Below are positions 57,509 through 61,276 of a stretch of 64,000 nt of DNA, one piece after another (positions within the stretch are counted from its first letter, which is position 1; every line of letters begins with the position of its first letter). The notes under the pieces are model-generated. The model saw only the letters and a program-made list of their open reading frames with translations, was not told the origin of the DNA and ran no database searches. The translations under genes and the position numbers were made by a program. The DNA comes from Acidobacteriaceae bacterium. Its GTDB lineage: Bacteria > Acidobacteriota > Terriglobia > Terriglobales > Acidobacteriaceae. The stretch lies in NCBI GenBank assembly GCA_003132405.1, contig PKXQ01000151.1:1-64000 (forward strand), given 5' to 3'.

Positions 57509-58366
57509 TTACAAGCCCGCTTCAATGCGGGATCTGGGATCGAGCAGATCGCGCAGCGCGTCGCCAATAAAGTTGAAAGCAAGCACTGCAAGCATCACGG
57601 TAAACGCCGGAAAGAGCACGAGATGCGGCGCGTCGAAAAGATGCGAGCGCGCGTCGTTGAGCATCGATCCCCAACTCGCAGTGGGCGGAGGAACGCCTAA
57701 TCCCAAGAAACTCATCGTCGCTTCAGCGAGAACCGCGCCTGCCATTCCGATGGCCGCTTGCACAATCACGGGCTGAATAATGTTGGGCAAAATGTGGCGA
57801 GTGATGATGTGGAAATCTCCCGCGCCGAGAGCGCGCGCCGCTTCGACAAATTCGCGTTCGCGCACGGCCAGCACTTGCGCGCGCACCAGACGCGCGTAGC
57901 CGACCCATCCTCCGAGAGAGAGCGCGAGAATAAGGTTGAAAATTCCCGGACCGCGAAAGGCGACGAAAGCGATCGCGATGAGAATGCCGGGGAATGAAAG
58001 GAATGCGTTCATGACGACGACGTTCACGAAGCGGTCGATGCCTCCGCCGTAGTAGCCGGCGACGCTGCCGATGATGAGGCCGAGCCCGAGCGAGCCGACA
58101 ACCACGCTGCTGCCGACAAAGAGCGAGATGCGCGCTCCCCAAATTAGGCGGGAGAGGATGTCGCGGCCAAGTTCATCGGTGCCGCACCAGTGCTGCGCTG
58201 TCGGAGATTGCAGGCGGTTCGGGAGGTCGATGTGCGCGGGATCTTGCGGAGAGATCCAGGGCGCGAAGATCGCGGAGAAGACGAAGATGGAGACGAGCAC
58301 GACTCCAATGGCAGCCAGCGGATTGTGGCGCGCTATGCGCGGGAGCGAGATGGCGAGAGTGGACAT
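57509..58366 (-). CDS. dppC: Peptide ABC transporter permease, DppC type
   Basis: The protein has 285 residues with six membrane helices. The N-terminal OppC domain is RIARHNPLAAIGVVLVSIFV, then HWCGTDELGRDILSRLIWGA (typical of DppC). The EAA loop is VEAARALGAGDFHIITRHIL PN. It forms the inner-membrane channel with DppB for import of di- or oligopeptides or nickel-type substrates. The partner dppB ends 1993 bases upstream, with opposite-strand genes between them, which is unusual. No binding-protein or ATPase gene follows within the window. Confidence 0.9.
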   Translation of the reverse strand: MSTLAISLPRIARHNPLAAIGVVLVSIFVFSAIFAPWISPQDPAHIDLPNRLQSPTAQHWCGTDELGRDILSRLIWGARISLFVGSSVVVGSLGLGLIIGSVAGYYGGGIDRFVNVVVMNAFLSFPGILIAIAFVAFRGPGIFNLILALSLGGWVGYARLVRAQVLAVREREFVEAARALGAGDFHIITRHILPNIIQPVIVQAAIGMAGAVLAEATMSFLGLGVPPPTASWGSMLNDARSHLFDAPHLVLFPAFTVMLAVLAFNFIGDALRDLLDPRSRIEAGL

Positions 58367-58890
58367 CGGCGGCGACTTGGATCACTTATATAGAAAATGG
58401 ATGGGAGGAGCAATTGTTACGTGATACCGCGGTTTGCTTCACTTTCATTTAGACTATTTACTAAATGATTATTAACGCTAGTTACTGCCCTCCCCCTCCC
58501 CCCGCAGCTAGCAGAATCAGAAGGTTAGGGAGAAATTTTTGACTTGGTCTTTGATTTCAAATGACTTAGAAGTAAAGTATTCCGAAATCAGCGAGTTGCG
58601 TCGATTTATCGCTAGATTCTACCAAGATTCATAGTTTTCGCGATTTTTCGAGGGCCGCTTGCTTGCTCAAATCAAGTAATCACCTGGTTAATAATCGGGC
58701 GTCTAGCGAGGATTTGCACACCTCTTCACCGTCCCTAATCCGCGTCATTGTCGCGCATTGCAGGATCGGGTGTCTGTGATGGCGCACACCGCGCGTTTGT
58801 GATGAAAAAGTCAATCGTCAGAGATGGGGCCTCAGCGGTCGGCAATGTACCTTTTGTGGTACACTCATTTTCAATTACGGTTGAGGATGA
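58367..58890. other. AT-richer intergenic stretch at the left edge of the dppB-dppC insert
   Basis: This is 524 bases clearly lower in GC than the neighbours (for example 58430-58480 and 58555-58690), with a C-rich run (CCCTCCCCCTCCCC) near 58487. It contains a 30-codon open frame at 58802-58894 whose TGA overlaps the HTH start as ATGA. I see no RNA gene or transposon end. Confidence 0.45.
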
Positions 58891-59169
58891 ATGACCAAGA
58901 AGAATTTGGGATCGAGCATTGACGATTTCTTGAAGAAGGAAAACATCTTTGAGGAAGCGCAGGCGCAAGCGGTTAAAGAGGTCGTGGCCTGGCAATTGGC
59001 CAAGGCTATGAAGAAGAAAAAGATTTCCAAGGCGCGCATGGCAGTCTTGCTGAAGACGAGCCGTTCGCAAGTCGATCGCATTCTCGATCCGAAGCGCGAT
59101 ATTACGTTGGGGAGTTTGCAGCGGGCGGCGGCGCTAGTGGGGCAGCGGGTGGTGGTTGAGTTGGTGTGA
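58891..59169 (+). CDS. XRE/HigA-like HTH protein
   Basis: The protein has 92 residues. An N-terminal helical part (SIDDFLKKENIFEEAQAQAV KEVVAWQLAKAMKKKKISKA) leads into a helix-turn-helix (RMAVLLKTSRSQVDRILDPK, ITLGSLQRAAALVGQRVVVE). The form fits small antitoxin-type regulators of the HigA group that pair with a toxin. No RelE/HigB toxin is recognisable upstream. Instead its stop overlaps the GTG of the next gene as GTGA, so the coupled partner is the 334-residue protein. It lies in an insert that splits dppB from dppC. Confidence 0.72.
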   Translation: MTKKNLGSSIDDFLKKENIFEEAQAQAVKEVVAWQLAKAMKKKKISKARMAVLLKTSRSQVDRILDPKRDITLGSLQRAAALVGQRVVVELV

Positions 59170-60170
59170 CGCTGTCGCGGCAGCCCACCTTCGCAAAGAA
59201 TGGGAAGGATGGGGCACCCGGCAACCGCCATGCGAAAACGTGCGAGGAGATTTGTTTGAGCGATTTAGAACCAAAGACAATGGTTTGGACCTACTGCGGC
59301 ATACGCAACGTTGAGCTCGACGCGGCCCATGCTCCCTTGGAATTAGGCTCGGGGTTCTGTTTGGCGAAGCCAAATGATGTTCTTCTGTCCGCAAGACACC
59401 GGTATTTCATGAGTGAGGAAGCATACAAAGAGGCTGAAGCCGTAAGTGCCTACTTGATTTACAAGAACGAGCATCCCGCCATTCAAGATGAGGGCTGGGA
59501 TGAAAGTCTAGAGGTGTTTCAGGACGGCTTGATGGCACTTCAAATACTCAAGCCTGTGCGGACCTTGGGTTTCGTTTTTCAGGGCTCGGGAAAGAGTGGC
59601 GTCGCAAGCCTGAGTCCGGGACCGACACACCACCGACCACCGACCGACGGCGGCCAGTGGGCAAGTATGCGGCACTTCGACGGTCGCCTGCTTGGAGAGG
59701 TCTCGGATTTGATTCCCAAGATACGCCGGGTAATGCAGGGAACGAATGCGGAACACAGAAACTCAATTGTCCTGCTCCAACTGGGTCTTGAACACTCCCA
59801 TCCGCTAATCGCTGGGCTCCTGTGCATCATGGGAATGGAAGCGAGATTCGACAGCTGTGATAGACATGACTTCAAGAAAACACTGTGCGCTTGCTTAGGA
59901 GCGTCAACTCTGGCGTTTCCTGATTGGAATTCTCCCAATTTTCCGCAACCGAAGTACACAGTTGAAGAACTAGCGATTCCGATGTACATGCTCCGAAGTA
60001 AGTTGGCGCACGGTGCTGACCTGCGAAAGGCAAGCGTCGATAAAAGCACGCCGGTTGACCTTACCAAGAAAGTCGATTTGATTCCAGAGCTAGAGCCAAG
60101 GGCCAACGCATATCTACTCAGCGAGGCTGCTGTTTATCTCCTCTGCCAAGTCTTACAAAAATGTGTCTAA
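59166..60170 (+). CDS. Unrecognised protein with a C-terminal HEPN-like R-x4-H motif
   Basis: The protein has up to 334 residues and no signal peptide or membrane segment. I do not recognise the family. The C-terminal third is helical (RNSIVLLQLGLEHSHPLIAG LLCIMGMEARFDS; PMYMLRSKLAHGADLRK; LLSEAAVYLLCQVLQKC) and includes R277-SKLA-H282, which matches the R-x4-H core of HEPN ribonucleases and of ApeA-like HEPN domains. The middle carries a Pro/Gly-rich loop (GVASLSPGPTHHRPPTDGGQ). GTG 59166 couples it to the HTH gene. ATG 59280 is an alternative start. A toxin or anti-phage effector is an inference only. Confidence 0.5.
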   Translation: MTLSRQPTFAKNGKDGAPGNRHAKTCEEICLSDLEPKTMVWTYCGIRNVELDAAHAPLELGSGFCLAKPNDVLLSARHRYFMSEEAYKEAEAVSAYLIYKNEHPAIQDEGWDESLEVFQDGLMALQILKPVRTLGFVFQGSGKSGVASLSPGPTHHRPPTDGGQWASMRHFDGRLLGEVSDLIPKIRRVMQGTNAEHRNSIVLLQLGLEHSHPLIAGLLCIMGMEARFDSCDRHDFKKTLCACLGASTLAFPDWNSPNFPQPKYTVEELAIPMYMLRSKLAHGADLRKASVDKSTPVDLTKKVDLIPELEPRANAYLLSEAAVYLLCQVLQKCV

Positions 60171-60213
60171 ACGTCGCTGAATGTGGGCGCTGGACTACCT
60201 GCAGCCAAACGGG

Positions 60214-60232
60214 AAGTTCGTTGCACAATTTG
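60214..60232. other. Hairpin after the HEPN-like gene
   Basis: CGTTGC-ACAATTT-GCAACG is a perfect six-base-pair stem 44 bases after the stop. No T-run follows, so termination is uncertain. Confidence 0.35.
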
Positions 60233-60358
60233 CAACGCCGATCCCACAAAAAAAACCAATATCCAGCAACACGACACAGCAAATCGAGTTTCTGAAAACA
60301 TTCGCAAGTGCTCTGTTTATGAGGGCTGGATGGTGCATTGAGAATCTTCCGTCCTAGC

Positions 60359-61276
60359 TCATTGTCTGATCCGCGGGTTCACCGCCGAATACAGTAAGTC
60401 AGTCAGGAAATTCACCGCGACATAAGTCAACCCAATTGCCAGAATGCATCCTTGTACCAGATAGTAATCGCGGTTGGCTATGGCTTGGATGGTTAGGCGT
60501 CCGATGCCGGGCCAGGAGAAGATGGTTTCGGTTACGATTGTGCCCGCCAGGAGAGCGCCGAATTGCAAGCCTAGGACGGTCAGGATGGGGATCATGGCGT
60601 TGCGTAGGGCGTGGCGATAGACTACTGTGCGCTCGGGCAGGCCTTTGGCTCGGGCGGTGCGGATGTAGTCCTGGCCTAACTCCTCTAACATCGAAGTGCG
60701 CACCATGCGGGTTAGGATGGCGGCTAAGGCGCTGCCCATAGTGATGGCGGGTAAGACTAAGTGGGCCAAGCTGCCGGAACCGCTGACGGGAAGCCATCCT
60801 AACTGAATCGAGAAAAATAAGATCAGCACAGGACCTAACGCGAAGTTAGGGAACGACAGGCTGAAGAGACTTACTACACTTAGGGCGCGGTCATCCCATT
60901 GATTGCGTCTTTGGGCGGAGCGGACTCCGGCGGGAATCGCTAACACGATTGCGACTAATAAGGATGCCAGAGTTAGTTGTAAGGTGAAGGGATAGCGCTG
61001 GGCGATCAAGTTAGTAACTCCCTGATTGAAGCGCAGGGATTTTCCTAAGTCTCCATGTAACACGCCTCGCCAGTAGTTCAGGTATTGCTGGCCCAGCGGG
61101 ACGTCGAGGCCGTAGGCGTGTCTTGCGGCTTGGATGTCTCCAGCAGCAGCGCCTTCGCCTAACATTTGTTGGATGGGGTCTCCGGGGACGAAGTGGATTA
61201 GCAGGAAGACGGTGGAGACTACCAGCCATATGACCGGGAGGGTGTAGAGCAGGCGGGATAGGATGTAGCGCGGCAT
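60359..61276 (-). CDS. dppB: Peptide ABC transporter permease, DppB type
   Basis: The protein has 305 residues. The N-terminus PRYILSRLLYTLPVIWLVVSTVFLLIHFVPGDP is typical of DppB/OppB. The EAA loop is YIRTARAKGLPERTVVYRHALRNAMIPILT, and SWPGIGRLTIQAIANRDYYLVQG follows near the end. It pairs with the DppC homologue to form the peptide channel. Normally dppC follows directly; here it is separated by nearly 2 kb. The substrate-binding protein is not in the window. Confidence 0.92.
   Translation of the reverse strand: MPRYILSRLLYTLPVIWLVVSTVFLLIHFVPGDPIQQMLGEGAAAGDIQAARHAYGLDVPLGQQYLNYWRGVLHGDLGKSLRFNQGVTNLIAQRYPFTLQLTLASLLVAIVLAIPAGVRSAQRRNQWDDRALSVVSLFSLSFPNFALGPVLILFFSIQLGWLPVSGSGSLAHLVLPAITMGSALAAILTRMVRTSMLEELGQDYIRTARAKGLPERTVVYRHALRNAMIPILTVLGLQFGALLAGTIVTETIFSWPGIGRLTIQAIANRDYYLVQGCILAIGLTYVAVNFLTDLLYSAVNPRIRQ

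Follow-up and report, generated by a model that had tools for sequence, protein, structure and literature searches.

An orphan HigA-like antitoxin gene and a probable HEPN-protein gene in an insertion hotspot between two ABC permease genes of an acidobacterial genome

In the draft genome of an Acidobacteriaceae bacterium (5.72 Mb, 158 contigs), two ATP-binding cassette (ABC) transporter permease genes, dppC and dppB, flank an insert that carries two plus-strand open reading frames (ORFs), one for a 92-residue helix-turn-helix (HTH) protein and the other, of 334 codons (59166–60170), for a protein with an R-x4-H motif. The genes lie in the 64,000-nucleotide stretch analyzed here (the window; positions 1 to 64,000 of contig PKXQ01000151.1), and their coordinates are collected in Table 1. 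An earlier note on this DNA had proposed that the two proteins form one toxin–antitoxin or phage-defense module. The site is more orderly than that note supposed—that is, a hotspot holding an orphan antitoxin gene with its palindrome and a gene whose product very probably belongs to an unnamed family of HEPN proteins—and a new toxin–antitoxin pair is not supported. The account that we favor, and consider probable, is that of an orphan antitoxin beside an independently acquired HEPN ribonuclease (RNase) or defense gene. Sequence comparison and structural models show the hotspot, the absence of the toxin where its palindrome persists, the purifying selection acting on the antitoxin, the HEPN motif, and the predicted fold.

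The insert that splits dppB from dppC is real, measuring 1,992 bp and having a lower GC content (0.507, compared with 0.61 for dppC, 0.56 for dppB, and 0.571 for the window), versus 75–106 bp between the same genes in three congeners. The site was searched for at the DNA level in 24 genomes of the genus, the window's own included; permease matches were listed in 22, the matches listed for the other two (G005 and G016) being to intergenic repeats only. Both permease genes were found on one contig, making the gap measurable, in 15 of the 23 congeners, and were split between contigs or not found in the other eight. The statement in the earlier note that dppB and dppC are normally adjacent holds for three of the 15 (75 bp in G019, 87 bp in G013, and 106 bp in G022), but not for the other 12, the gaps of which are 317, 577, 680, 804, 904, 916, 1,099, 1,444, 2,058, 2,615, 2,626, and 2,683 bp. 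Because the contents of the gap differ among the 15 measurable congeners, the dppC–dppB gap is, on this comparison, an insertion (cargo) hotspot, with different defense-like genes in related species. The G001 gap holds a gene resembling the PIN gene found in the G010 gap, together with a Gp49 toxin gene, the same HTH gene as in the window, and another HEPN-like gene; further gaps contain AbiEii with an AbiEi match below cut-off (G008), an SDH-type protease (G004), and a HAD-domain gene (G017), and a copy at a contig edge (G021) contains a GIY-YIG/HNH-repeat gene. The HEPN gene of the window was found in no listed congener (G001–G020). Related genomes keeping the same arrangement with unrelated contents, which the earlier note had named as evidence against its proposal, is largely what was found. 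A search for flanking repeats of the kind that would mark a transposon turned up a single direct pair and two inverted ones, 13–18 bases long, none of them at the ends of the insert.

The small protein is HigA-like, as the earlier note stated. Its matches to curated models are weak (HTH_26, E 0.008; PADLOC PDC-M64B, 2.8e-4; antidote_HigA, 0.059), and its homologues, detected in 17 of 61 genomes, the window's own included (22 rows, corresponding to 20 distinct places), stand in part beside Gp49 genes. The Gp49 protein of G001, which matches PF05973 (Gp49, RelE/HigB superfamily) at 2.1e-18 and whose HTH neighbor is 95% identical to that of the window, was used as a tblastn query, and a Gp49 gene was found upstream of the HTH homologue at 10 of the 20 places; at one of these ten (L035) the match covers residues 38–120 only, and another (L047) appears to be frame-broken. 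One further place (L046) begins at a contig edge and is unjudgeable for Gp49, and a divergent toxin might escape detection at the others. Since Gp49 precedes the HTH gene at half of the places, the natural partner of this protein is of the RelE type, contrary to the non-RelE partner envisaged in the earlier note, and no match to Gp49 was obtained in the insert (E ≤ 1). By this comparison, the HTH protein belongs, as the antitoxin, to a module of the Gp49/HigB type and has been orphaned by the absence of its toxin. In published Gp49-type modules (PMC5906591), the antitoxin gene comes second, after that of the toxin, and its product acts as repressor of the promoter; the window shares with them a homologous antitoxin gene and a preceding palindrome but, unlike them, has no toxin gene before the antitoxin. 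Elsewhere in the same genome, three other Gp49 proteins exceed the family cut-off (contigs C131, C19, and C91; L103–L106), each with an HTH-like neighbor by eye, and a fourth sits just under it.

The position of the palindrome can be compared in the presence and absence of the toxin. In a scan of the 800 bp upstream of 19 HTH loci (L046 being left out), with up to five mismatches accepted, it was present at 13. At nine of the ten Gp49 loci, L035 being the one without it, the palindrome lies 369–456 bp before the HTH gene and hence before the toxin gene; in the toxin-less window, G014, G020, and G029, it lies about 39–45 bp before the HTH gene, with nothing toxin-like between. It was not found, within the same limits, at the remaining five toxin-less loci. 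The next-best matches within these stretches carry 8–9 mismatches, except at L038, which has two sites with five each. On this evidence, the operator-like palindrome and the antitoxin coding sequence have been kept, and the Gp49-type toxin that stands between them in related modules is absent. In G029, which belongs to a different genus, the orphan HTH gene and palindrome likewise adjoin dppC, the best dppB match being on another contig (L082).

The HTH coding sequence appears to be under purifying selection. Ratios of nonsynonymous to synonymous substitution (dN/dS) between the window copy and the likewise toxin-less G014 copy were 0.055 (NG86) and 0.083 (YN00), those against the toxin-bearing G001 copy were 0.030 (NG86) and 0.084 (YN00), and that against G020 was 0.25 (NG86). 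The window and G014 share a layout without the toxin, which is most simply explained by retention of the antitoxin alone since before the two genomes split; independent losses of the toxin in the two would weaken the case for such long-term retention. An anti-addiction role has been proposed for orphan antitoxins (PMC7354431). Like these, the window antitoxin has been kept without a toxin; unlike them, it lies in a cargo hotspot and still has its palindrome.

The larger protein was numbered anew, as the coupling of the two genes by GTGA described in the earlier note is very probably artefactual. The first 30 codons of the 334-codon ORF, which starts at a GTG (59166) overlapping the HTH stop codon, run over a REP-like (repetitive extragenic palindromic) hairpin directly after that stop, with only one of 200 shuffled sequences folding as well. 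A 14-base word of the hairpin occurs four times in the genome, its reversed control not at all. G014 has the same layout, with an equivalent hairpin of different stem sequence after the same HTH gene (−30.5 kcal/mol, z −5.0), followed by dppB and no HEPN gene. A TTG codon at 59256 is preceded six bases upstream by AGGAG (59245–59249), and the alignments of HEPN relatives begin at residue 6 or later of the 304-residue form that it would start. The 334-residue form was accordingly rejected, the relatives aligning only within the shorter one, and the start is likely to be the TTG; R277 and H282 of the longer reading become R247 and H252.

Conservation and predicted structure both make it very probable that the larger protein is a member of the HEPN superfamily, in a family that has no name. 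A single-protein scan of genome contigs found no relatives; an alignment-based scan found five. The family comprises 13 sequences, namely the window protein and 12 relatives, with the alignment leaving out one that contains X (L092) and a broken copy in G342, both of which show R-x4-H. All 11 of the aligned relatives, four of them only 16–20% identical to the query, have both the R and the H without exception, which is more than chance. The members found are all acidobacterial, the phylum's exterior having been covered by one pattern-based scan and by phage, plasmid, and viral searches. In the model of the C-terminal domain (mean predicted local distance difference test score, pLDDT, 84.7), a helix spanning model residues 96–111 bears the R at 107, with the H at 112 just past its end, so that the pair stands where the third core helix ends, and the preceding helix (43–58) carries an acidic residue, E55, that is E in 10 of 11 aligned members and D in one. 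The R-x4-H agrees with the motif given for the HEPN superfamily (R-x4-6-H) in PMC3710099. The seven best structural matches of the model are solved HEPN domains, in searches that leave room for matches to other families; the HEPN-like character suggested in the earlier note was borne out by the two further checks that it had named, the model looking like a HEPN bundle and the R-x4-H being conserved. In common with AbiV, the Csm6 HEPN, AF0298, and ST0689, the model has its R-x4-H where helix 3 ends, an acidic residue in helix 2, and a helical core, but no sequence-level match links these HEPN RNases to the window protein. That the bundle is instead something other than a HEPN RNase, with a purely structural R-x4-H and a different activity, is unlikely given the invariance and placement of the pair, the acidic residue, and the HEPN entries in the seven best structural rows.

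At the sequence level, the window protein matches no Pfam, NCBIfam, or PADLOC family. Among 11 family members, none matched Pfam (E ≤ 1), three PADLOC families each hit one member (best E 0.025), and three unnamed PHROGs families each hit one member (best E 0.0053). Searches of plasmids, phages, and viral contigs and a sequence search of solved structures gave no match, and a Foldseek search of viral predicted structures gave nothing significant. As judged by titles and the beginnings of abstracts, with subscription papers mostly outside the coverage, no paper was found on this HEPN family or on the dppB–dppC hotspot. A comparable named architecture is that of ApeA, a HEPN defense system (PMC7699616) encoded by a single gene; its N-terminal part, which contains beta strands, comes ahead of the HEPN domain (Apea-like HEPN, PF18739; PMC3710099). 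The window protein is likewise the product of a single gene, and five short strands appear in a low-confidence model of its N-terminal 140 residues, the beta-rich N-terminal domain of ApeA being about 300 residues long. Membership in ApeA was rejected: PF18739 matched none of the 11 members (E ≤ 1) and nothing in the own-genome search, and hhalign against the sole Apea protein found in a congener (G021) gave a probability of 0.1.

A defense or mobility gene was found nearby at six of 12 HEPN-relative loci, a count based on neighbors chosen by eye before testing and lacking a background rate for defense genes. One locus (L092, 131–4821) is a small defense-like cluster in which an Mrr_N/DNA methylase protein and an AbiU2-type HEPN accompany the family member; at another (L098, in G053), Mrr_cat, an Mrr-type restriction endonuclease, lies directly upstream of a distant relative on the same strand, and a relaxase/helicase-like ORF, judged by eye, is nearby. 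A TIR/pentapeptide protein is encoded upstream of the relative at L089, and the neighbors elsewhere include a resolvase (L056), a phage capsid gene (L058), a TrwC relaxase (L101), DUF2971 (L100), and an HTH_37 protein (L055). In G235, a second, weak HEPN-similar stretch (L057, 522–662; E 0.006) lies about 7 kb from the main relative.

The proposal that the HTH and HEPN genes form one toxin–antitoxin unit was set aside, the two genes failing to co-occur in relatives and the coupling being very probably an artefact of the start codon. The HTH was found at none of the 12 HEPN-relative loci (tblastn, E ≤ 1; 3.3–16 kb per locus), and the HEPN at none of the other HTH loci (L033–L053; tblastn, E ≤ 0.1). 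The genes are therefore probably neighbors rather than a pair. Several observations weigh against this view and for a true two-gene module in which a HigA-like antitoxin has switched partner and now neutralizes a HEPN RNase: the genes are adjacent, on the same strand, and 86 bp apart; in G001, another gene containing an R-x4-H-like stretch lies about 90 bp downstream of the same HTH; the HEPN relative at L055 is followed 54 bp on by a HigA-like HTH_37 gene (PF13744, 1.3e-11) on the opposite strand; and the HTH is under purifying selection despite the absence of Gp49. However, the L055 gene is of another kind than the window HTH, and G014 keeps the HTH gene and palindrome with no visible partner, its contig ending 181 bp before the HTH gene. 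Together with the failure to co-occur and the apparently artefactual coupling, these points make a switched partner distinctly improbable.

Alternatively, the HEPN gene might be under the transcriptional control of the antitoxin, by read-through from the HTH promoter with the operator as a switch and with no neutralization between the proteins. The palindrome is intact, different genes lie downstream of the HTH on the same strand in the window's genome, G001, and G020, and a simple scan of the insert for sigma-70-type promoters came up empty (0, versus 1.6 expected by chance). That scan also misses any promoter of the HTH gene itself and so says little, and a stable hairpin stands between the two genes; we regard such putative control as rather unlikely. 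An extended version, also unlikely, would make the toxin-less module a reusable platform, with antitoxin and operator anchored next to dppC across more than one genus and unrelated effectors plugged in downstream under the antitoxin's transcriptional control, the window HEPN family, the G001 HEPN-like gene, and the uncharacterized G020 gene being, as part of the same claim, those effectors.

The downstream genes of G001 and G020 were examined separately. The G001 gene (L060, in the gap; also L102) encodes 281 residues with RCDLVHNG, has no Pfam match, and matched only G001 itself among 101 genomes. Homology to the window family was not supported (hhalign probability 0.2), though the single aligned stretch superposes the R-x4-H. 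In G020 (L073), a gene of about 270–285 codons after the HTH has no Pfam match; by eye we take it to resemble DUF3800, which the Pfam search did not bear out. The HTH position may favor such cargo.

In the account of independent acquisition, the hotspot would hold two separate things, an orphan HigA-like antitoxin and a 304-codon gene acquired on its own. We infer the RNase activity, defense role, trigger, self-repression, and anti-addiction that follow. In the product, a C-terminal HEPN domain behind a poorly predicted N-terminal part would probably act as a metal-independent endoribonuclease, R247 and H252 forming its catalytic pair. A signal of infection or stress, sensed by the N-terminal part, would rouse it from an idle state, after which it would cut RNA and halt growth or phage. 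For the antitoxin, repression confined to its own promoter is most likely, with a possible further role in protection from incoming Gp49 toxins. The site adds a HEPN-domain family unrecognized by Pfam, NCBIfam, and PADLOC, several members of which lie beside defense or mobility genes. It also provides a clear orphan-antitoxin case, in which the operator position is comparable with and without the toxin across genomes. With the antitoxin apparently selected in the absence of its toxin, the purpose of orphan antitoxins becomes directly testable.

Table 1. Features of the permease gap and its edges (positions in the window)
Feature	Position	Strand	Basis
dppC-type ABC permease gene, hotspot left edge	57509..58366	-	BPD_transp_1 (PF00528) 7.4e-35, OppC_N 2.3e-10; found in congeners
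Dispersed intergenic repeat, about 330 bp, ends approximate	58492..58822	.	Paired matches with similar spacing in several congeners; 12 of 12 places re-read matched
Palindromic operator candidate of the HTH gene, TGTACC-TTTTGT-GGTACA	58846..58863	.	Upstream at 13 of 19 HTH loci
HigA-like (XRE) antitoxin gene of 92 aa, orphan without its toxin	58891..59169	+	Weak model matches; homologues beside Gp49; dN/dS
REP-like hairpin, translated in the 334-aa reading	59172..59226	+	-25.5 kcal/mol, z -3.0; 14-base word repeats in genome
HEPN-like protein gene, 304 aa, likely TTG start	59256..60170	+	Relatives, invariant R/H, models, structural matches
Predicted HEPN domain, residues 141-304, with R247/H252	59676-60167	+	Domain model and alignment
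dppB-type ABC permease gene, hotspot right edge	60359..61276	-	BPD_transp_1 (PF00528) 1.9e-44; Opp2B 349.4 bits, cut-off 350

The names dppB and dppC are kept from the earlier note. Both proteins fall short of the cut-off of every NCBIfam permease model, the best being Opp2B (Table 1) and Opp4C (295.2 against 350 bits), and the substrate has therefore been left unassigned. The dispersed repeat between dppC and the palindrome is frequent in congeners (for example, G003, G008, G017, and G020) and rare in the window's own genome, and its conserved blocks include CCCCCTCCCCCC and GTCTGTGATG.
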